Origin: Bacteroidota bacterium
Lineage (GTDB): Bacteria > Bacteroidota > Bacteroidia > Chitinophagales > BACL12
Reading direction: 5' to 3'
NCBI GenBank assembly: GCA_029571985.1
Contig: JAKQVC010000034.1
Span: forward strand, 1-33,317
Length of the DNA stretch: 33,317 bases
A program made the translations under genes and the position numbers. Shown one piece after another: positions 1-27,614 of this stretch. Under the pieces are notes generated by a model. That model ran no database searches and had not been told where the DNA came from. It saw nothing but the letters and a program-made list of their open reading frames with translations. The stretch's first letter is position 1, and every line of letters starts with the position of its first letter.

Positions 1-396
1 GAGTGGCACGTTCACTTGTTGGAAATTGTATGCTTGTTGTTGATAGTATCCGTCAATGCCACCAGTCAACTGCCCATTGCCAACCTGCAAATGAAAAGCG
101 TATTGCAGATGGATTTCATCAGTAGTGAGTTTGCCAAAAGCATCTCTGGCAATCCATACACCAGCGCTGTGTTGCTTAAATCGGTAAGCACCGGATAAGG
201 CTGAAAGGGTAGGTGCACCATCAATGCCAACCCACTGCACATTATATAAAAGTCCTGCGGAAATGCCTTCTGAAATGCCCTGAAGAGCAGGGTTGATGAG
301 GGCAGGCATGACATCTTGCTGAATAGGTAATCCGGTTTGTGCCTGTGTATAGGTCAAACCAATCAGACAATAAATACTGCAAATTAATTTTCTCAT
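1..396 (-). CDS. PorP/SprF-family type IX secretion outer membrane protein (3' end beyond left edge)
   Basis: The first 132 codons are visible and the reading frame is still open at base 1. The protein starts with a signal peptide (hydrophobic core CSIYCLIGLTY, likely cut after TQAQ). It then shows the N-terminal signature of PorP/SprF proteins: QQDVMPALINPAL at about residues 27-39, followed by GLLYNVQWVGIDGAPTLS and an alternating beta-strand pattern (GAYRF, SAGVWIARD, LQYAFHLQVG). PorP/SprF proteins are outer membrane barrels of roughly 300 residues. SprF is known to be needed for secretion of type B sorting-domain cargo such as SprB. The ATG overlaps the stop of the upstream sorting-domain gene (ATGA, 393-396), so the two are translationally coupled. 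That pairing fits a dedicated PorP with its own type B partner. The family call comes from motif recognition and the C-terminal half is unseen. Confidence 0.85.
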   Translation of the reverse strand, partial: MRKLICSIYCLIGLTYTQAQTGLPIQQDVMPALINPALQGISEGISAGLLYNVQWVGIDGAPTLSALSGAYRFKQHSAGVWIARDAFGKLTTDEIHLQYAFHLQVGNGQLTGGIDGYYQQQAYNFQQVNVPL

Positions 397-746
397 CTGA
401 CAATAGTTACCGTGCCGCTTACCTGCTGTTTTTCCTGTTGATCGGTATAATGTAAAACATATACATAAGTGCCTTGCTCTAATGGTTTATTATCAGTTGC
501 ATTGGTGCCATCCCAGTTTTGATCATAACCACTTGCTTTATAAACCTGAGCGCCCCATCGATTAAATACGGTTAATTCGTTATCCGGAAAATCAAAAAGG
601 CACATAATTTCCCATTTATCATTTATGCCATCGCCATTAGGTGTAAATACATCAGCAGGAGCAGGTCTGGCACAGGAAGTTTGTGCCTGCAATCCGGCCT
701 GAATGCTGCAACATATCGCTACCAGAACGAAATACTTTTGTATCAT
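393..746 (-). CDS. CTD-only secreted protein: type B T9SS sorting domain (gliding motility-associated C-terminal domain) without cargo
   Basis: This 117-residue protein has a signal peptide (residues 1 to about 21, ending GLQAQ) followed directly by a complete type B sorting domain. Visible signatures are FTPNGDGINDKWEI (about 34-47), LTVFNRWGAQVYKASGY, NWDGT, the LEQGTYVYVLHY strand, and the terminal GTVTIVR. In this family the domain normally sits at the end of adhesins hundreds to thousands of residues long and directs them through the T9SS. Here almost nothing lies between the signal peptide and the domain. It starts 1 nt after the stop of the upstream SUMF1-fold gene and overlaps the PorP/SprF start by 4 nt, so it is embedded in the operon. 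The intact frame and tight coupling argue against a decayed fragment. A role as adaptor, plug or minimal surface protein is inference. Confidence 0.85.
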   Translation of the reverse strand: MIQKYFVLVAICCSIQAGLQAQTSCARPAPADVFTPNGDGINDKWEIMCLFDFPDNELTVFNRWGAQVYKASGYDQNWDGTNATDNKPLEQGTYVYVLHYTDQQEKQQVSGTVTIVR

Positions 747-747
747 A

Positions 748-1530
748 TCAATTAGCTGTTTTTAATATCACTACTGGTCTGAATCCGATAAATGGTGAGC
801 CATGTGTAATGCCGTTATATGGGTCTGCACCATGAATGCGGAGTGCAGGTTCAAGACTTTCCCAACTACCGCCTTTATGTTTTCCGGGTTCAGATAACAT
901 TTCGGCTGCATTTCCGCTCATATTAAACATACCATATGGATTTGTATCGAAAGATAAAACCGGTGATAAGGTATAATCGCACACTGTTCCTTTTTTTGCA
1001 TTGCATTTATAATAGCCTTTGCGGTCAACATAACCACCTTTCCCCCAACCATAAACAGCTGAGGTATCGCCACCCTGAGCAGCTAATTTCCATTCGACAG
1101 AATCCGGCAGGCGCACTTCAACTGCATAACCTGCTTCAGTATATTTTTCCGTAAGCCATTTGCAATATAAAGCCGCACCGGCATGTGAAATATTTACAAC
1201 CGGATAATTATTGTATACTTCGTTTTGAAAATAAAAATTCGTGTACGCATTTGCTGAACCGTACAGCGAATCCCATCTGGCTGTATCAACTGCGGCCACT
1301 TGTAATTCTTCTGTGCGGTTATGAATTTTTAAATCGTACAGAAATTTTCGGTAATCCTCATTTGAGATTTCGTACGATAAAATATAAAAATCATGGTCTA
1401 ATCCTGTTTTGGATTGTTTAATTTCAACAAAGCCATGTTTTTTGAGAAACAGGTCGGTTTTATCAAAAGGGATTGCCGAAGTGCCCACCACGCAGACAAT
1501 ACCCATAAACAGGAAGAATAGAGTACGCAT
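748..1530 (-). CDS. SUMF1/FGE-sulfatase-fold secreted protein, predicted non-catalytic (copy A)
   Basis: This 260-residue protein has a signal peptide (core LFFLFMGIVCVVG, probable cleavage after TSA) and no lipobox cysteine. The rest is a divergent formylglycine-generating-enzyme (SUMF1) domain: EISNEDYRKFL (about 54-64), YPVVNISHAGAALYCKWL, VRLPDSVEWKLAAQGG, YGMFNMSGNAAEM, KGGSW, and the end SPFIGFRPV. True FGEs carry two copper-binding cysteines just after the GGSW segment (SWxCxxxxC type). Here that stretch reads GGSWESLEPALRIHG, with none. The usual GNVxEW is degraded to GNAAEM. GldJ and GldK of the T9SS/gliding machinery share this fold, so a structural role is plausible. It lies 42 nt after its paralogue and 1 nt before the sorting-domain gene. 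Calling it a GldJ/GldK analogue is inference. Confidence 0.8.
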   Translation of the reverse strand: MRTLFFLFMGIVCVVGTSAIPFDKTDLFLKKHGFVEIKQSKTGLDHDFYILSYEISNEDYRKFLYDLKIHNRTEELQVAAVDTARWDSLYGSANAYTNFYFQNEVYNNYPVVNISHAGAALYCKWLTEKYTEAGYAVEVRLPDSVEWKLAAQGGDTSAVYGWGKGGYVDRKGYYKCNAKKGTVCDYTLSPVLSFDTNPYGMFNMSGNAAEMLSEPGKHKGGSWESLEPALRIHGADPYNGITHGSPFIGFRPVVILKTAN

Positions 1531-1572
1531 ATAACCGAAATATACAGTTAAATATACAAATACCTGTATATT

Positions 1573-2388
1573 CTAGTGGGTTACAGCTGTGAATACCGGC
1601 CTGAATCCTATAAATGGTGTGGGGTCTGATGCCATTGGAAATTCCGGTTGGGCGTCTATTTTCAGAAATTCCGGCTCGCTCCACCAGTTGCCGCCGAGTG
1701 CTGTGCCGGTATCTGAAATCCATTCGCTTACATTACCTGCCATATTGAACAAGCCGTAGTCATTTGGTTTATAGGATTTTGAAATGGTAGTCAGATAGCC
1801 ACCATCATCGGCACTTTTTTCTGTTTTATAATTTGCGAGATACAATCCTTTGCTATCGCGTAAATGATCACCCGACCATGGATATATATTTCCGCTATGT
1901 CCACCGCGAGCTGCCATTACCCATTCTGATTTTAAAGGTAAGCGCACCTTTACCTGCAACCCTTTTGCCTGTAATTGTTCTTCAAGCCACGCACAATATA
2001 ATCGCGCACCTTCCTGACTGATATTTACCACCGGGTAATGATCAAACGCAGCATGATAAAAATACTGCTGTTCAATCGCTTCCATACTGCTGTTAGGTAA
2101 TCTCCATTTTTCTGAATGCACAGCTGCATCCTTTAGTTTTGAGCTGTCGCCACGAGCAGTCAGTGAATCCAGAAATACCCTGTATTGTTCGTTGGTAATT
2201 TCACCCGCCGACATATAAAATCCCTGAATGGTAACCGTTTTGCCATCCACAATCGTAGCGCCGGAAGGAATATAAACATACCCGGCTTTTTTGCAGATAC
2301 GATCAAACTTGCGGTCGGGCATTCCTGCTGAGGTGAACAAACCAATTGTAATGACGCAGAGAAGTAAGGTTTGTAAAGCTTTATACAT
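1573..2388 (-). CDS. SUMF1/FGE-sulfatase-fold secreted protein, predicted non-catalytic (copy B)
   Basis: This 271-residue paralogue of the next gene heads the four-gene operon. It has a signal peptide (core TLLLCVITIGLFTSA) and then a full SUMF1-type domain: GYVYIPSGATIVDGK, EITNEQYRVFLDSL, YPVVNISQEGARLYCAWL, VRLPLKSEWVMAARGG, YPWSG, YGLFNMAGNVSEW, LGGNW, and a terminal PTPFIGFRPVF. It is better preserved than copy A (GNVSEW intact) but also lacks the paired active-site cysteines after GGNW. No cysteine follows the signal-peptide core in a lipobox position, unlike the lipoproteins GldJ and GldK. The shared motif order suggests a tandem duplication. The upstream gap to pckA holds the pckA terminator (2440-2464), so this operon should have its own promoter, but I could not identify a convincing TAnnTTTG box there. 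Confidence 0.8.
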   Translation of the reverse strand: MYKALQTLLLCVITIGLFTSAGMPDRKFDRICKKAGYVYIPSGATIVDGKTVTIQGFYMSAGEITNEQYRVFLDSLTARGDSSKLKDAAVHSEKWRLPNSSMEAIEQQYFYHAAFDHYPVVNISQEGARLYCAWLEEQLQAKGLQVKVRLPLKSEWVMAARGGHSGNIYPWSGDHLRDSKGLYLANYKTEKSADDGGYLTTISKSYKPNDYGLFNMAGNVSEWISDTGTALGGNWWSEPEFLKIDAQPEFPMASDPTPFIGFRPVFTAVTH

Positions 2389-2439
2389 GATGGAGTGATT
2401 TAATGAGCATAACGTTTTTATGAGGGCACTTCATATAAA

Positions 2440-2464
2440 AAGGCTGCCTTTTTCGGGCAGCCTT
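2440..2464 (-). terminator. Rho-independent terminator of pckA
   Basis: A perfect 9-bp inverted repeat (AAGGCTGCC / GGCAGCCTT) encloses a 7-nt loop. On the minus strand it is followed by TTTTATAT. It lies 26 nt after the pckA stop codon and separates pckA from the SUMF1-PorP operon downstream. Confidence 0.8.
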
Positions 2465-2489
2465 CTGTAATATAGGTTTGTGCACCTGC

Positions 2490-4100
2490 TTAAACCGTGG
2501 CATTAGCCTTTGGGGCAGCTGCCAGAATTTCAGCATTGGCTTTATCGGCGTATTTCTCAAAATTCTTTACGAATTGTGCAGCGAGGTTATTCGCCTTCGT
2601 GTCGTAAGCCGCTTTATCAGCCCAGGTATTTCTTGGATTTAATACTTCTGCCGGTACGTTCGGACAAGTAGTTGGGAAATGCAATCCAAATACCTCATGC
2701 GTTTCATATGACACGGCGTCTAACTGTCCGGTTAAAGCAGCGGTAATCATGGCACGTGTATAGCTCAACTTCATGCGATTTCCGGTGCCGTAAGAACCAC
2801 CGGTCCAGCCTGTATTGATTAACCACACGTTGACATTGTGCTTGCGCATTTTTTCGCCGAGTAATTCAGCATATTTAGTTGGATGTAAAGGCAGGAATGG
2901 TGCGCCAAAGCATGTGCTGAACGTTAATTGTGGTTCAGTAACACCTGCTTCTGTTCCGGCCACTTTTGCGGTATAGCCGGATAAGAATTGATACATCGCC
3001 TGTCCCGGATTTAATTTGCTGATAGGAGGCAATACACCAAAGGCATCACAAGTAAGGAAGAAAATATTTTTTGGTAATCCGCCTTTACTTGGCGTCATAA
3101 TATTATCGATGTAATGAATCGGATAACTTACACGTGTATTTTCTGTTTTTGTGATATTCGTAAAATCTACTGTGCGTGTGCCCGGATAGAATTCGATATT
3201 TTCCAGAATGGAGCCAAATTTAATGGCATTGAATATCTGAGGTTCATTTTCTTTCGTGAGGTTAACGCATTTGGCATAACAACCTCCTTCAAAATTAAAT
3301 ACACCGTCTTCTGTCCAACCGTGTTCATCATCACCAATTAAACGGCGTTGCGGGTCGGCACTTAATGTTGTTTTACCTGTACCGGATAATCCGAAGAATA
3401 CAGCTACATCACCATCTTTACCCACATTCGCAGAACAGTGCATGCTCAGCACACCTTTTTCCTGCGGCAGCCAGTAATTTAATACAGTGAAAATGCCTTT
3501 TTTCATTTCACCGGTATAGCCTGTTCCACCAATTAAAATTATTTGTTTGGTGAAATCAATCATGGCGAAGTTTTTCTCGCGTGTTCCGTCTACGGCAGGA
3601 TCTGCCTGAAAACCCGGCGCATTGATAATGAGCCAGTCGGGTTGCATGGTTGTTATTTCTGCAGCATCGGGACGCATAAACATATTATCGCAGAATAAAT
3701 TTCCCCAAGGGTATTCATTTACGGTGCGAATATTGATGCGATAGGTTGGATCAGCACAAGCGAAATTATCTCTTACCCAAATGTCCTTATCCGCCAGATA
3801 GGTCATCACTTTTGCATACAACTTTTCGAAGGTTGCGGCGTCGGTCGGGATATTGAAGTTATTCCAATCCACTGTATCAACCGTTTTGGCATCTTTTACG
3901 GTGAATTTATCTTTCGGAGCGCGGCCTCTGAATTTACCGGTATCTACAACCAGGGCACCTGAGTCCGCTAAAACGCCTAATCCACGATTGAGGGTATGTT
4001 CAACGAGTTCGGCAGGGGAGAGGTTCCAGAAGGCATTTCCGGTGTGTTGCAGGCCAATCGCTGCGAGGGAAGCAGCGGGATTCTTTATTCCTGATTCCAT
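2490..4100 (-). CDS. pckA: ATP-dependent phosphoenolpyruvate carboxykinase
   Basis: This 536-residue cytosolic enzyme interconverts oxaloacetate plus ATP with phosphoenolpyruvate, CO2 and ADP, at the entry to gluconeogenesis. The length matches the ATP-type family (about 530-540). The kinase-1a (Walker A) loop GLSGTGKTT lies at about residues 237-245 with Lys243. It is followed by the metal-binding kinase-2 segment RLIGDDEHGW (about 253-262), which identifies the ATP rather than the GTP enzyme. The N-terminal RGRAPKDKF (RSPKDKF-type) and WLINTGWTGG near residue 430 are also family hallmarks. It is a single-gene unit with a TATCTTTG box upstream (4130-4137) and a terminator downstream (2440-2464). 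Nothing unusual was seen. Confidence 0.97.
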   Translation of the reverse strand: MESGIKNPAASLAAIGLQHTGNAFWNLSPAELVEHTLNRGLGVLADSGALVVDTGKFRGRAPKDKFTVKDAKTVDTVDWNNFNIPTDAATFEKLYAKVMTYLADKDIWVRDNFACADPTYRINIRTVNEYPWGNLFCDNMFMRPDAAEITTMQPDWLIINAPGFQADPAVDGTREKNFAMIDFTKQIILIGGTGYTGEMKKGIFTVLNYWLPQEKGVLSMHCSANVGKDGDVAVFFGLSGTGKTTLSADPQRRLIGDDEHGWTEDGVFNFEGGCYAKCVNLTKENEPQIFNAIKFGSILENIEFYPGTRTVDFTNITKTENTRVSYPIHYIDNIMTPSKGGLPKNIFFLTCDAFGVLPPISKLNPGQAMYQFLSGYTAKVAGTEAGVTEPQLTFSTCFGAPFLPLHPTKYAELLGEKMRKHNVNVWLINTGWTGGSYGTGNRMKLSYTRAMITAALTGQLDAVSYETHEVFGLHFPTTCPNVPAEVLNPRNTWADKAAYDTKANNLAAQFVKNFEKYADKANAEILAAAPKANATV

Positions 4101-4249: not shown

Positions 4250-4903
4250 ATGAAATCGCTGAAATTCCTTTGCCTGGCCTTTATTTGCTGGACCTCCGTG
4301 GATGCATATGGTCAGTTCTATGCTGCACCTTCGTTAAATCTTTATATCAACCAGAATATAATGGGCAGTAGCACAAGCGCGCTGGGTAATCTGGAGCCTG
4401 TTTATTTAGGATTGGGCGGTTCGGGGGGTTATGCCTTCGATTTCTGGGCAATTGAGCTTTCTGTAGCCGGTTATGCCCCCAGGACTTATGATACCATTAT
4501 TACCGAATTCGACGGTTTGTACGGCACTGTGGAATATCCGGCAACAGAGTCAAGCACCTTGTACGGCTTTGGGATAGATTTTAGATTTTATAGTCCCTGG
4601 TGGACTGACTACTCTGTGGACTTCTACTCTAGTGTGGGTATTCATAGAACATTTGAACATATTAAGCGCATCCTGCCGGAAGCCTATTCTATTTATGAAG
4701 ATGATGCTTTTAACATTCCTAACAATATTTTTCGAGCCGGACTCGGTGTCGATTTTTATCTCGAAGACCTGGATTTGATTTTCCTCGAAGTGGGTATTAG
4801 CAATGCATTAGCTATGTCGGATATAAGTAACCTGTCGACCTACAATGTGACTTACGGATTTGGCTGGACGGGTAAAGCAGGTATACGCCTGTTTCTGGAT
4901 TAA
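4250..4903 (+). CDS. Secreted small outer-membrane beta-barrel-like protein of unknown function
   Basis: This 217-residue protein starts with a signal peptide (MKSLKFLCLAFICWTSVDAYGQ, cut near AYG-Q). The remainder has the alternating polar/hydrophobic pattern and glycine/aromatic richness of a small outer membrane barrel: YLGLGGSGGYAFDFWAIELS, LYGFGIDFRFYSPWW, FRAGLGVDFYLEDLDLIFLEV, and a last strand TGKAGIRLFLD. The size fits an 8-stranded barrel. I recognise no specific family motif and no substrate. It stands alone, between the divergent pckA and the convergent dprA. The start is supported by the promoter at 4206-4235 and by the signal peptide. Other secreted beta-rich folds remain possible. 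Confidence 0.65.
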   Translation: MKSLKFLCLAFICWTSVDAYGQFYAAPSLNLYINQNIMGSSTSALGNLEPVYLGLGGSGGYAFDFWAIELSVAGYAPRTYDTIITEFDGLYGTVEYPATESSTLYGFGIDFRFYSPWWTDYSVDFYSSVGIHRTFEHIKRILPEAYSIYEDDAFNIPNNIFRAGLGVDFYLEDLDLIFLEVGISNALAMSDISNLSTYNVTYGFGWTGKAGIRLFLD

Positions 4904-10297: not shown

Positions 10298-11866
10298 ATG
10301 GCAATTCGCATGGTCCCCGACGACAATCAACCGCGTCAACAATCTAAACTGCCCGGTGGTAACCGTGGGGGAGGCGGTGGCGGTAATATTATAACGATGG
10401 TGTTACCGCTTTTATTCGGATTTTTTCGGAAAAATCCCAAAACGGCCATTGTCCTGATACTAGTGCTGGCGGCCTTCTGGTATTTTGGCGGAGGTTCGTT
10501 ATTAACCAATGGCGGTGGCACCAGTTCTATTACAGATTTGTTCAGTACCGGCGCCAGCTTTAATCCGGAACAATACGATGCAACAGCTGTATTTGAACCA
10601 CCTGTAACCGATAATGCGAAAAACCCTTTACCAGAGGCGGTTTCCTTGTTAAAATATGCACCATCCCGATTAAATCAGGGTAGCCAGGGTAGTTGTGTCG
10701 GCTGGGGTTCTGCTTATGCAGCACGCACGATTCTGGAAGCGGAACGCACCGGGAAAGACCCCAATACTATCGCCTTCAGCCCCGCCTATCTCTATAACCA
10801 AATCGGATTGGATGGTTGTCAGGGCGCATATATTCCAAATGCCATGGAAGTTATGCAACAACAAGGCCTCATTCCATTGCGTGATTTCCCGTATTCGGAT
10901 GATGATTGCTCACGTCAGCCAACAGAGGCCCAAAAACAAAAGGCAGGTGCCTATACAATGCCGGGTTATGTGCGACTCACTAAAGGGGATGCCAATGGTG
11001 TTGGTCAGGAGGCCATTGATTTAGTGGCGATCAAACAAAATATTGCACAAGGTGCTCCGGTTGTGATCGGTATGATGGTGGGTGGCAGCTTTATGCAAAA
11101 TATGATGGGTAAGTCAGTGTGGAACCCAACACAACAGGATTTGAATATGCAGGGGTTTGGCGGACATTGTATGTGTGTAATCGGCTATGACGATTTTAAA
11201 GAAGGCGGTGCATTCCAGATAATGAATAGCTGGGGACCTGAGTGGGGAGAAAATGGCGTTGCCTGGGTGCCTTATAACGTATTCGACCGCTTTGTGGTGG
11301 AGGCCTATGGTGTGTATCCGATGGGTAGTGTAGATAAGCCGCTTGGCAATACACTTAAAGCTTCTTTTGGGTTAGTGATGAACGACGGTGCGAAAGCTAT
11401 TCCGCTCAAACAAACCGGGGAGTATACCTTCCAGACGGTTTCGGCAATTAGAAAAGGTACAAGGTTTAAAATTCAGGTAACAAACTCACATGAATGTTAT
11501 ACCTATGTATTTGCACTTGATGCAAATAAGCAAAGCGAAGTATTGTTTCCTTATACAGAAAAACATTCGCCCTATTGCGGGATAACCGGCACACGTTTGT
11601 TTCCTAAAGATTATAGCATGGAAGTAGATCAAACCGGTGCGCAAGATGAAATGGCCATCGTACTCACCAAAAAACCATTGGATTATAAGGCCATAAATGC
11701 ATCGATAAATAATCAATCCGGAACATTTGACCAGAAATTGCAAAAGGCACTTTCGGCAAATAAAATTCCGCGCTTACAATTTACTTCAGGCGATGTTATC
11801 GGCTTTTCAACAAATTTACAGGACAACGAGGCAGTGATTATGGTGATGGCCATTGACAAGCGATAA
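10298..11866 (+). CDS. Membrane-anchored C1 (papain-like) cysteine peptidase
   Basis: This 522-residue protein has three parts. The N-terminus is a polar, glycine-rich tail (six consecutive glycines near residue 25) followed by two hydrophobic stretches, with a clear membrane helix TAIVLILVLAAFWYFGGG at about 48-65. The middle is a papain-fold domain: oxyanion Gln127 and nucleophile Cys133 in LNQGSQGSCVGWGSA, His290 in FGGHCMCVIGYDD, and Asn310 in IMNSWGPEWGENG. All papain catalytic positions are present. The last 170 residues or so (from about 345) form an unassigned beta-rich domain resembling DUF4384-type regions. There is no cleavable signal peptide, so the enzyme should be tethered with its catalytic part probably in the periplasm. 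No propeptide is obvious. It is followed 35 nt later by the CBM9/DUF5916 gene. Its substrate is unknown. Confidence 0.85.
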   Translation: MAIRMVPDDNQPRQQSKLPGGNRGGGGGGNIITMVLPLLFGFFRKNPKTAIVLILVLAAFWYFGGGSLLTNGGGTSSITDLFSTGASFNPEQYDATAVFEPPVTDNAKNPLPEAVSLLKYAPSRLNQGSQGSCVGWGSAYAARTILEAERTGKDPNTIAFSPAYLYNQIGLDGCQGAYIPNAMEVMQQQGLIPLRDFPYSDDDCSRQPTEAQKQKAGAYTMPGYVRLTKGDANGVGQEAIDLVAIKQNIAQGAPVVIGMMVGGSFMQNMMGKSVWNPTQQDLNMQGFGGHCMCVIGYDDFKEGGAFQIMNSWGPEWGENGVAWVPYNVFDRFVVEAYGVYPMGSVDKPLGNTLKASFGLVMNDGAKAIPLKQTGEYTFQTVSAIRKGTRFKIQVTNSHECYTYVFALDANKQSEVLFPYTEKHSPYCGITGTRLFPKDYSMEVDQTGAQDEMAIVLTKKPLDYKAINASINNQSGTFDQKLQKALSANKIPRLQFTSGDVIGFSTNLQDNEAVIMVMAIDKR

Positions 11867-16483: not shown

Positions 16484-19400
16484 ATGTTATCACGATACTT
16501 ACTCCTCACCCTCATGTGCACCGGCGCATTGACGTCATTTGCACAAGTACCCGTTCAGGTAAAAGGCGATTGGCCGACAATGCCGAACTCACCCAACTAT
16601 TACGAATTGCGTCAGCAAATTTTGGACCACATCACAGATGAAATCACCGAAGCTGAATTGCTTGGTATGGATGCCGAAACAGATGACGATTTAAGAAGAT
16701 TTTATCGTTGGGATTATTTAATGTCGACACGCGTCGATTCAGCAGGTAATTTTCCTGACCCCCGCATTCTCTTTATTGAATGGGAAAAAATGAGAGCGCG
16801 TTACGGCGACAATTTTGCCGGCGAACGGGCTGCTAACTGGACACCTGTTGGAACGGATGAAATTCCAACTCAGGGTGGAGGTATGGGACGTATTAACGTT
16901 GTAATCATTGATCCGGTAGATGTGAATACCCTTTATGTGGGCACTGCCGGCGGTGGATTATGGAGAAGCACCGATTTAGGTGGAAGCTGGACACCTCTTA
17001 CTGATAATATTCCCGTTCTGTCAATTGCAGATGTAGTTGTTGACCCTTCAAACAACGATATTATTTATATCGCAACCGGTGATAGCTACGGATACGAAAT
17101 TACCTGGCAGCCGGACAATGATTTCTGGGGCGGGATATATGCCGGAGGTATCATGAAGTCAACAGACGGTGGTTCAACCTGGTTACCAACCGGATTAAGC
17201 TACGAACAGGATGAACTCATGATTGTACAACGCATGGTTATGCATCGTGATGACCCTAATATTCTGATAGCGGCTACTCGTAATGGTATATACCGCACTA
17301 CCAACGGAGGTACTACATGGACCCTCGAATCATCTGCGCATTGCTACGATATCGCCCTGCATGCTACTGACGATAATATGTTTTATGCAGTTGGCGACCG
17401 CGATGTATTAGTATCTTCAAATGGTGGTGATACATGGACAGTGCTGGAAGATAATTTATCCTCCGGTGACGACCGTATGAGTATTGAAACAACTGCGGAT
17501 AATCCGAATGTTATTTATGTATTATGTTCTGATGGAGCACTAAAATTATCTACAGACGGTGGTTCTACCTGGGCCAATAAGGATAATGCAGATGGCGACG
17601 TTTCCGGATTTAATGGTTATTGGGGATTGGCAATGGGTGTTTCTCAACAGGATAAGGATTTAGTGTTTGTAGGTGGTGTGGATATGGCACGTTCTACAAA
17701 TGGCGGTAACTCGTTTTCAAATAAAACAGTTTGGTGGGATTATGGCGCAGACAATTATGTGCATGCCGATTCAAAATGTATTTTGTTTGACCCAACTAAT
17801 GACAATATTATTTATGCAGCCAATGATGGCGGACTCTTTAAATCTACAGATAAGGGCAATACCTGGACTGACTTAAGTGATGGATTACGCATTGCGCAAT
17901 TATATCGCTTGTCTGTTCACCCATCTGATGATGGATTGGTTTTAGGCGGTTTGCAGGATAATGGCACAAACTTCTGGAATGGTTCTGATTGGGATCGCAC
18001 CTTGGGTGGTGATGGTATGGAAGCTATCATCGATTACACAAACCCTGACAGGATGTATGCCGAATATTATTTTGGTGCCTTACAGCGCTCTACTAATGGC
18101 GGTGCTACCTGGTCTGATTTACCGGTTGCCGGCGGCCCATGGGTAACACCTTACGATATGGATCCGGTTGATCATTTAATTATGTATTACGGTACTTCTT
18201 CCGGCGATGTGCAACGTTCAACCAACGGCGGAACCAGCTGGATAACCAAAGAAGCAAATTTGTCGGGCGAGGTTTTTGACATTGCTATCGCACCTTCAAA
18301 TACAGCTTATATCTATGCCTGTTGTTTGCAACAAATTAAGAAATCAACCAATTCAGGTGATTCCTGGACAAATATTTCTACCGGTCTGCCATTCAGTGGT
18401 ATCGGTATTAATTATATTGCTGTCAGTGATGAAAATCCTGAACATCTCTGGGTTGCGATGAGCGGATACTCAGATGGTAATAAAGTTTTCTATTCATCAA
18501 ATGGTGGCACAACCTGGACAAACGTATCTGGTGATTTACCAAACGTTCCGGTGAATTGTATTGTGTATGAAAACGTCAGTCCCGATGATCGCATTTATAT
18601 CGGAACGGATATTGGTGTATTTACAAAATCTAACACTTCAGATTGGGAACCTTATATGACCGGTTTACCAAATGTAATGGTGCATGAACTTGAAATCGAT
18701 TATACAAATTACAAATTATACGCCGCAACATTCGGTCGCAATGTTTGGAAAAGCGATTTATACGGATTTATCGTTCCAACCTTGACCGTAGGTGATATTG
18801 AAACAACCTATTGCCCTGGCGAAGAAATAGATGTTGATTACGTAGCATCCGGAGTGTTTTCAGGAACAAATGTATTTACAGCACAATTGAGTAGTGCTAC
18901 CGGTAGCTTTGCTACTCCTGAAAATATTGGTTCCATCACCAGCGATGCACTTATCGGTTCTATACCTGCTACCATCCCGGATGATGCATCCGGTAACGGT
19001 TATAGAATTCGTGTAACTTCCAGTTCACCTGCTGTTATCAGTATCGATAATGGTGCAGATATTACAATAGCCTGCGATCAGCCGGTTGGTGTCGAAACAA
19101 CAACCATCACTGCAACAACGGCTACACTCGATTGGGATGATGTTATCTGTGCGGTGAGCTATGAAGTGAAGTATAAGGCTATTCCTGATGTTGATTACAC
19201 CTATGTAACAACCACATCATCAGATTACACAATCACTGATTTATTGCCTAATAGTGGTTACGAATGGGCTGTTAGAACAATCTGTGTTGAGGAACCTGAA
19301 GTAGCAACCGGATTTACCAATACGGAAAGCTTTACAACTGTTCAAAATAGTATTATTGATATTGCCGGCATTCAGGGTTTTGCCATGTATCCAAATCCTG

Positions 19401-19624
19401 CCAACAGTTCTACCTCTGTTCAATTTGTATTAAATGCACAGGCGCAGGTATCTGTTGAGCTCTTGGATATTACCGGAAAACTGGTACAGTCTGTTGCTCA
19501 GGGTCAATTGGCACCCGGACAGTACCAATACGCAATTGATGTAGATTTATTACCTGCCGGAACTTACTCTGTAATGATTTCAGTTGATGATAAATCTGCT
19601 GCTACTCAACTGATTGTTGAATAA
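16484..19624 (+). CDS. Secreted Asp-box (BNR/sortilin-like) propeller protein with Fn3 domain and type A T9SS sorting domain
   Basis: This 1046-residue protein has a signal peptide (MLSRYLLLTLMCTGALTSFAQ). From about residue 120 to 760 it carries eleven Asp-box-like repeats of the S-T-D/N-x-G-x-T/S-W type, for example STDGGSTW, TTNGGTTW, STNGGATW and SSNGGTTW. These are the hallmark of sortilin/Vps10-like and sialidase-like beta-propellers. An Fn3-like domain follows at about 865-955 (ATLDWDDV, YEVKYK, LLPNSGYEWAVRT). The end is a type A sorting domain from about 965: FAMYPNPANSSTSVQF, VELLDITGKLVQ, LPAGTYSVMI, and QLIVE. It is therefore T9SS cargo delivered to the cell surface or medium. Sialidase catalytic residues are not evident, so an enzymatic role is not claimed. 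A weak TAATTTTT box lies 5 nt before the ATG (16471-16478). Confidence 0.92.
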   Translation: MLSRYLLLTLMCTGALTSFAQVPVQVKGDWPTMPNSPNYYELRQQILDHITDEITEAELLGMDAETDDDLRRFYRWDYLMSTRVDSAGNFPDPRILFIEWEKMRARYGDNFAGERAANWTPVGTDEIPTQGGGMGRINVVIIDPVDVNTLYVGTAGGGLWRSTDLGGSWTPLTDNIPVLSIADVVVDPSNNDIIYIATGDSYGYEITWQPDNDFWGGIYAGGIMKSTDGGSTWLPTGLSYEQDELMIVQRMVMHRDDPNILIAATRNGIYRTTNGGTTWTLESSAHCYDIALHATDDNMFYAVGDRDVLVSSNGGDTWTVLEDNLSSGDDRMSIETTADNPNVIYVLCSDGALKLSTDGGSTWANKDNADGDVSGFNGYWGLAMGVSQQDKDLVFVGGVDMARSTNGGNSFSNKTVWWDYGADNYVHADSKCILFDPTNDNIIYAANDGGLFKSTDKGNTWTDLSDGLRIAQLYRLSVHPSDDGLVLGGLQDNGTNFWNGSDWDRTLGGDGMEAIIDYTNPDRMYAEYYFGALQRSTNGGATWSDLPVAGGPWVTPYDMDPVDHLIMYYGTSSGDVQRSTNGGTSWITKEANLSGEVFDIAIAPSNTAYIYACCLQQIKKSTNSGDSWTNISTGLPFSGIGINYIAVSDENPEHLWVAMSGYSDGNKVFYSSNGGTTWTNVSGDLPNVPVNCIVYENVSPDDRIYIGTDIGVFTKSNTSDWEPYMTGLPNVMVHELEIDYTNYKLYAATFGRNVWKSDLYGFIVPTLTVGDIETTYCPGEEIDVDYVASGVFSGTNVFTAQLSSATGSFATPENIGSITSDALIGSIPATIPDDASGNGYRIRVTSSSPAVISIDNGADITIACDQPVGVETTTITATTATLDWDDVICAVSYEVKYKAIPDVDYTYVTTTSSDYTITDLLPNSGYEWAVRTICVEEPEVATGFTNTESFTTVQNSIIDIAGIQGFAMYPNPANSSTSVQFVLNAQAQVSVELLDITGKLVQSVAQGQLAPGQYQYAIDVDLLPAGTYSVMISVDDKSAATQLIVE

Positions 19625-27425: not shown

Positions 27426-27614
27426 ATGGAACTGAATCAGAAACTCGCCCAACTCAAAGCTATTCTTGCTCTTGCTGAAGAAGACTTACAAAAATTCACA
27501 GATAAAGGCAATAAAACTGCCGGTACTCGTTTACGAAAATCTCTCCAGGAAATTCGCGAACTCGCTGGCGATATGCGCAAAGAAGTACTCGAATCGCGCA
27601 AGGTGAAAGTCTGA
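27426..27614 (+). CDS. Histone H1-like (Hc1-type) small protein
   Basis: This 62-residue, helix-rich protein has the pattern of the short histone H1-like proteins common in Bacteroidetes: LKAILALAEEDLQKF, then DKGNKTAGTRLRKSLQEI with the characteristic GNKxAGTRxRK core (about 28-38), and a basic C-terminus ESRKVKV. These proteins are related to chlamydial Hc1 and are presumed to bind DNA, but their roles in Bacteroidetes are little known. It lacks the long lysine/alanine-rich tail of true Hc1. The gene stands alone between a terminator and the repeat-rich intergenic region. No clear TAnnTTTG box was found upstream. Confidence 0.8.
   Translation: MELNQKLAQLKAILALAEEDLQKFTDKGNKTAGTRLRKSLQEIRELAGDMRKEVLESRKVKV

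Follow-up and report, generated by a model that had tools for sequence, protein, structure and literature searches.

Type B substrates of the type IX secretion system (T9SS) carry a C-terminal sorting domain (CTD) and exit the translocon on a PorP of their own, to which they stay bound (PMC9143113, PMC12618676, PMC10994853); carriers of this kind hold the substrates at the cell surface (PMC9143113, PMC12618676). In Flavobacterium johnsoniae the type B substrate SprB, a 669 kDa adhesin, is encoded directly upstream of its PorP/SprF carrier, SprF, the tail of which bears a GldK-linking Cys-X-Cys. The SprF tail cysteines tie the carrier to GldK and the moving track and are dispensable for export, and the invariant cysteine of GldK provides the disulfide link to SprF and PorG (PMC12635249). 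GldK/PorK and GldJ are track lipoproteins of SUMF1 fold that lack the cysteine pair of the formylglycine-generating enzyme (FGE). In Porphyromonas gingivalis the type B CTD protein PG1035, of ~50 kDa, is held at the surface by a PorP that PorE ties to peptidoglycan, and it has been speculated to be a PorP cap (PMC9143113). The genes Fjoh_3952-Fjoh_3951-Fjoh_3950 provide a type B substrate that is static, together with the carrier belonging to it, in an operon that includes a PorE homolog (PMC12618676); SUMF1 genes are not described there. A minimal type B substrate and carrier, preceded by two SUMF1-fold genes, lie at one end of the DNA analysed here. This stretch (the window) is the entire contig C208, 33,317 bp, from a draft genome (G000) of 4.0 Mb and 282 contigs from a Bacteroidota bacterium of the BACL12 lineage.

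The four open reading frames (ORFs) of the cluster are all on the minus strand, in the order SUMF1 A, SUMF1 B, CTD, PorP, with 42 nucleotides (nt), 1 nt and a 4-nt overlap at the successive junctions:

1573..2388, minus strand: SUMF1 A, a secreted, non-lipidated SUMF1-fold protein of 271 amino acids (aa), first gene of the cluster (PF03781, 6.8e-34)
748..1530, minus strand: SUMF1 B, a secreted, non-lipidated SUMF1-fold protein of 260 aa (PF03781, 9.7e-26)
393..746, minus strand: passenger-less type B CTD protein of 117 aa, comprised of a signal peptide, ~10 residues and the CTD (CHU_C, 9.8e-28)
1..396, minus strand: N-terminal half of the PorP/SprF carrier, 132 aa, open at the contig edge (PF11751, 3e-18)

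Signal peptides and the absence of lipoboxes were judged by reading the sequences, without a dedicated predictor. Base 1 is the contig end, and PorP, the last gene of the cluster, is therefore truncated there. Its second half was reached by searching the genome with the rsmE gene of the second genome of the genus (G001) and lies at positions 1-423 of contig C37; its highest similarity is to the G001 PorP of this locus. The initial annotation had described four tightly packed genes on one strand; all ORFs were found where it had placed them, and Pfam and NCBIfam profiles agree with its assignment of two SUMF1 proteins, a type B sorting domain and a PorP/SprF protein. At about an even chance for the explanation as a whole, the locus is read here as a variable slot that holds SUMF1 genes and a minimal type B substrate-carrier pair, the pair forming an exported static cap.

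By the curated cut-offs of TIGR04131/PF13585 the CTD protein belongs to the type B T9SS substrates. CHU_C covers residues 32-114 with 96.6 bits (cut-off 27), the strongest CHU_C score in the genome, and the NCBIfam type B sorting domain TIGR04131 gives 2.5e-18 (66 bits, cut-off 35). With ~96 residues when mature, it is shorter than any other intact type B protein that the genome encodes; the other unbroken type B frames span 410-2106 aa, and one 155-aa frame lies near a contig start. The counterpart in G001 is also 117 aa long and is 52% identical. Among the matches listed, tiny CTD-only proteins occur elsewhere in at least one clear case (G015, 120 aa), which has no PorP beside it; TPNxDGxND, NRxG, WD, GTY and the terminal R are invariant in three tiny CTDs. 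Between G000 and G001, second codon positions change less than first and third positions in all four cluster genes, and 4-fold degenerate sites are near saturation, a pattern that shows selection in two species, in both of which the CTD and PorP genes are intact.

The carrier is recognised by PF11751 (66.8 bits on the window half) and by the NCBIfam PorP family (2.4e-22), and in the tree it is sister to the G001 PorP with 98-100% bootstrap. The model of the G001 ortholog (mean predicted local distance difference test score, pLDDT, 85) has exactly 14 strands, and its best PDB match is 8gl6_F, a chain of a T9SS substrate-bound complex. Together with the adjoining type B gene these features are those of a PorP/SprF carrier. 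The periplasmic C-terminal tail with its GldK-bonding cysteine, characteristic of SprF, is missing from both copies. In the G001 model the last strand runs from residue 271 to 283 of 287, and the chain ends 4 residues later. From the conserved HE motif to the C-terminus there are 12 residues in the window PorP and 14 in G001, whereas the median is 27 and the tenth percentile 20. Both copies (C37 half, G001) lack a tail cysteine and the PR or CP motif that is common at the terminus. Several other PorPs in this genome do have a terminal tail with cysteine in it. The genome contains further CTD-then-PorP pairs on C264, C9, C183 and C60, and since four other PorPs thus directly follow a type B gene, the adjacency as such is ordinary. 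The earlier suggestion that the small CTD protein is delivered by its own PorP keeps the backing of this adjacency and of published precedent (PMC12618676, PMC9143113).

Other PorP/SprF proteins are joined to further domains. Single-frame fusions with an OmpA peptidoglycan-binding domain occur in several families (L043 47-1498, L050 1755-3191, L207 463-2385, L210 1078-3486), and a fusion with a SPOR domain is present at L205 1477-2934, with frames of similar length at L213, L215 and L227. From their domain make-up these fusions are single-chain versions of the PorP-PorE anchor.

Compared with SprB-SprF, the window pair shares the placement of a type B CTD substrate directly upstream of its carrier and differs in having no passenger, no tail and no cysteine. 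Like PG1035, the small CTD protein would be a type B protein held at the surface by PorP; PG1035, however, is so large that it has a passenger, and a PorE-like gene is absent from the readable neighbourhood of the window pair. The initial annotation had pointed to the sequence left of base 1 as a place for an OmpA/PorE-like gene or further CTD genes, and neither is found on the 17 kb of C37 that can be read. The Fjoh_3952-Fjoh_3950 system is alike in having a static substrate with its own carrier, the static state of the window pair being a prediction. The stripped-down CTD-PorP pair amounts to a naturally minimal form of a secretion partnership that is already known.

The genome encodes SprA (2436 aa) and a GldK-GldL cluster with a PorP upstream, which makes the presence of a T9SS very likely. 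By analogy with the described carriers it can be inferred that the small CTD protein would be exported by Sec, would then pass through the SprA translocon while attached to its own PorP at the extracellular loops, and would remain on that barrel at the cell surface. A protein without a passenger would be unable to serve as an adhesin, and a carrier without tail or cysteine would be unable to form the disulfide link to the GldK track that SprF forms. Because passenger, tail and tail cysteine are all absent, the CTD protein would most likely function as a cap or seal that stays static on the barrel, a cap being the simplest role. A slim chance, hardly more than a speculation, is left to the idea that the tail-less carrier and passenger-less CTD act as a plug or brake of the T9SS, docking on SprA where the track gets no grip so that translocons are occupied or sealed, or that the SUMF1 proteins replace the role of the tail non-covalently.

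A passenger-free CTD has little other role at the surface, and it could instead be a substrate with a signalling or regulatory role that reports on T9SS activity or limits it, as does PorA of P. gingivalis, which passes a signal to PorXY-SigP (PMC7712824). PorA, however, binds PorV via its CTD and also possesses an N-terminal domain of FimH-like fold. A regulator gene is absent inside the cluster, and the response-regulator genes three genes downstream (C37, G001) are a weak pointer. A signalling function is considered very unlikely.

Gene order at the same place in related genomes bears on whether the four genes form one unit. The upstream limit of the locus is given by two further features:

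2438..2466, minus strand: intrinsic-terminator-like hairpin between pckA and SUMF1 A, from RNA folding
2490..4100, minus strand: pckA, the upstream flanking gene, a neighbour kept at the same place in G001, G002 and G004

The pckA at this place is 90% identical to that of G001, 79% to that of G002 and 82% to that of G004. In G001 the order is pckA, SUMF1 A, SUMF1 B, a 117-aa CTD protein, PorP, rsmE and DUF4159, with all four genes in the order of the window. Two other genera of the same family (G002, G004) have pckA, one SUMF1 gene and rsmE, without CTD or PorP, and in G004 one extra gene stands between pckA and SUMF1. A third genus, g3 (G003, G005), has a large type B adhesin, PorP and rsmE, and no SUMF1 gene of this kind was found in it. 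The SUMF1 gene and the CTD-PorP pair can therefore be parted, each being found without the other at this locus in sister genera. The space between pckA and rsmE would accordingly be a slot with two independent contents: secreted, soluble proteins of SUMF1 fold, one or two in number, which are related in sequence to GldK and, as far as the sequence tells, stand outside the gliding track; and a type B T9SS substrate with a dedicated PorP, both minimal in lacking passenger and periplasmic tail, respectively.

This distribution weighs heavily on the proposal of the initial annotation that the SUMF1 pair acts as scaffold for CTD-PorP, the four proteins forming a small dedicated machine for secretion or attachment. 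Such a scaffold would be periplasmic, and the SUMF1 proteins might take the place of the missing PorP tail. The tight one-strand spacing is kept in both genomes of the genus, of the solved structures PorK/GldK (1e-40) comes nearer in sequence to the SUMF1 proteins than FGE (1e-18) does, and GldK-type SUMF1 proteins are known periplasmic partners of PorP-type carriers (PMC12635249). Nevertheless, the order SUMF1-SUMF1-CTD-PorP is found only in G000 and G001 and is a local feature of one genus; a lack of conservation in related genomes had been named beforehand as an outcome that would count against the module. The parts separate in the sister genera, and across the order no excess of neighbours is seen: a type B CTD or PorP gene lies within three genes of SUMF1 in 2 of 40 fetched loci, where ~3 of 40 would be expected by chance (estimated from 33 type B and 11 PorP genes among ~3500 genes). 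In an earlier, smaller set a type B gene stood within four genes in 5 of ~25 SUMF1 loci, and there may be a weak tendency for SUMF1 and type B genes to be neighbours. The SUMF1 proteins also lack a lipobox and the track cysteine. A four-part module is distinctly unlikely on these grounds, and the locus warns against inferring a module from gene order alone.

The content of the slot in g3 raises the question of descent. The g3 adhesin-PorP pair resembles the window pair in genome place and in having a type B CTD gene followed by PorP, with the 4-nt overlap common to the window, G001 and G003. It differs in that the CTD protein is at least 1289 aa long in G003 (with Big_9/cadherin-like repeats) and at least 1173 aa in G005, in the normal tail of its PorP and in the lack of SUMF1. 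With 8-15 PorP genes per genome, an independent arrival of PorP directly before rsmE in two genera is unlikely, and the pair has probably long stood at this place. The pair could be a relic, what remains of a large adhesin after loss of the passenger, with the short CTD gene and its carrier drifting to loss. The large pair at the same place in g3, the absence of the pair from G002 and G004, and a divergence of PorP much faster than in its paralogs are in keeping with such decay. Against it, both genes are intact in two species despite identities of only 52% (CTD) and about 30% (PorP), with saturated 4-fold sites and constrained second positions; the CTD holds the top CHU_C score of the genome; and the 14-strand barrel is fully retained in the model. 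Slow decay is thought improbable, with a modest but real share of the probability, and it is mainly for this reason that the slot with its static cap is held at no better than an even chance.

Several points count against the favoured reading of slot and cap. GFP fusions have put the shortest signal for type B export at 150-235 residues (PMC12618676) or >200 (PMC10202324); the mature CTD protein (~96 residues) falls short of this, and export might fail, although the requirement is an experimental limit from such fusions and not a family definition. PorP is 26% identical between G000 and G001, against 56-84% in seven other reciprocal PorP pairs, and this low conservation could reflect relaxed constraint. 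In the tree the g3 PorP is not sister to the PorP of this locus, yet sister placement is not rejected by the approximately unbiased test (p-AU 0.144); descent of the CTD-PorP pair from the g3 large-adhesin pair is neither supported nor rejected by the trees and is not proven. The junction of C208 and C37 rests on synteny, with ~20 PorP residues unsequenced between the contigs.

The reported type B signal limit is undercut here by a natural protein, the small CTD protein. Published work has left open the minimal size of the type B signal and the need for the carrier tail in pulling a loaded carrier off the translocon, and a natural substrate of ~96 residues with a tail-less barrel would make both questions directly testable. 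The small size of the pair also suits structural work; as of a 2025 paper the structure of a type B CTD was not yet solved (PMC12618676).

The SUMF1 proteins are related to track proteins and distinct from them. Against the GldK profile TIGR03525 (cut-off 350 bits), SUMF1 A scores 169.5 bits and SUMF1 B 93.3; against the GldJ profiles the respective scores are 67.7 and 36.3 (TIGR03524, cut-off 458.2) and 70.8 and 42 (TIGR03530, cut-off 382.9). No lipobox was read in either. At the site of the track cysteine the genome's own GldK has TKGCYLAN, whereas SUMF1 A has SKGLYLAN, with Leu, and SUMF1 B has RKGYYKCN. Separate true GldK and GldJ genes are present elsewhere in the genome, the former on C280 with lipobox and track-cysteine motif. 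Scores far under the equivalog cut-offs together with the missing lipobox and track cysteine rule out a miniature GldJ/GldK pair; of the earlier placement among GldJ/GldK-type T9SS elements, the fold and the lack of a lipobox stand. The active-site cysteine pair of FGE, C-x4-C, is in neither protein and an FGE is likewise ruled out, so that the description "catalytically dead" applies to FGE chemistry only. A separate FGE in the same genome (C50) keeps the pair (GGSFLCNEAYC). The solved structures nearest to the SUMF1 profile are PorK and then FGE, and a modest model of SUMF1 B (pLDDT 74) has the same two as its closest structures.

SUMF1 A and SUMF1 B are 58% and 57% identical, respectively, to their G001 copies. 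The tree places SUMF1 B, but not A, with the lone SUMF1 gene of G002 and that of G004 (support 95/87), by which B is likely to be the family-wide gene of this locus; SUMF1 A at this locus occurs only in this genus. A recent tandem duplication would place A and B in one clade, which is not rejected (p-AU 0.203), yet B sits with the family gene.

SUMF1 B also has a cysteine pair in a loop of the SUMF1 domain (CN...C, residues 176 and 184), which looks like an intramolecular disulfide. The partner position shifts, to GTC in G002 and G004 and NMCGN in G044 and G032, and the pair is lost in paralog A. Similar short SUMF1 proteins are widespread in the order; literature searches turned up none of this type in a T9SS context. 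In family f18 tandem SUMF1 genes are found at L282 5249-8891 (three successive genes, of 629, 275 and 276 aa) and at L290, and L294 encodes a single chain of 879 aa with two SUMF1 domains.

The SUMF1 proteins could alternatively be enzymes or ligand binders of an unrelated pathway that merely share a transcript with the pair, a view compatible with the static-cap reading of CTD-PorP. In many families such proteins stand alone beside unrelated genes. SUMF1-fold enzymes without the FGE cysteine pair exist, e.g. PvdO, to which weak matches are seen here. On the other hand, conserved pathway neighbours are absent from the 40 loci, and no pathway can be named. An unrelated role for the SUMF1 proteins has an evenly balanced chance.

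The pckA terminator upstream of the cluster, noted in the initial annotation, is borne out by folding. Minus-strand positions 2425-2475 fold into a hairpin whose 3' side is rich in U (-18.8 kcal/mol, z -4.5), and G001 has an equivalent one between pckA and SUMF1 A (z -4.1). A plain consensus terminator scan did not list the window hairpin, probably because its stem extends into the T run. Beyond PorP, C37 continues with rsmE, DUF4159, response-regulator genes, TspO and more genes in essentially the order of G001.

On the other side of the cluster, beside pckA, positions 4250-4903 encode an outer-membrane-barrel-like protein of 217 aa with no family match. Its counterpart at the same place in G001 (L055 3488-4132) is only 26% identical, and it reads as another fast-evolving envelope gene. 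Elsewhere in the window, positions 10298-11866 encode a papain-like C1 peptidase with a DUF4384 domain, and positions 16484-19624 a beta-propeller (sortilin/BNR) protein of 1046 aa that bears a type A sorting domain. A 62-aa lysine-rich ORF at 27426-27614, in an otherwise empty stretch of 940 bp, resembles by eye the small bacterial histone-H1-like proteins.

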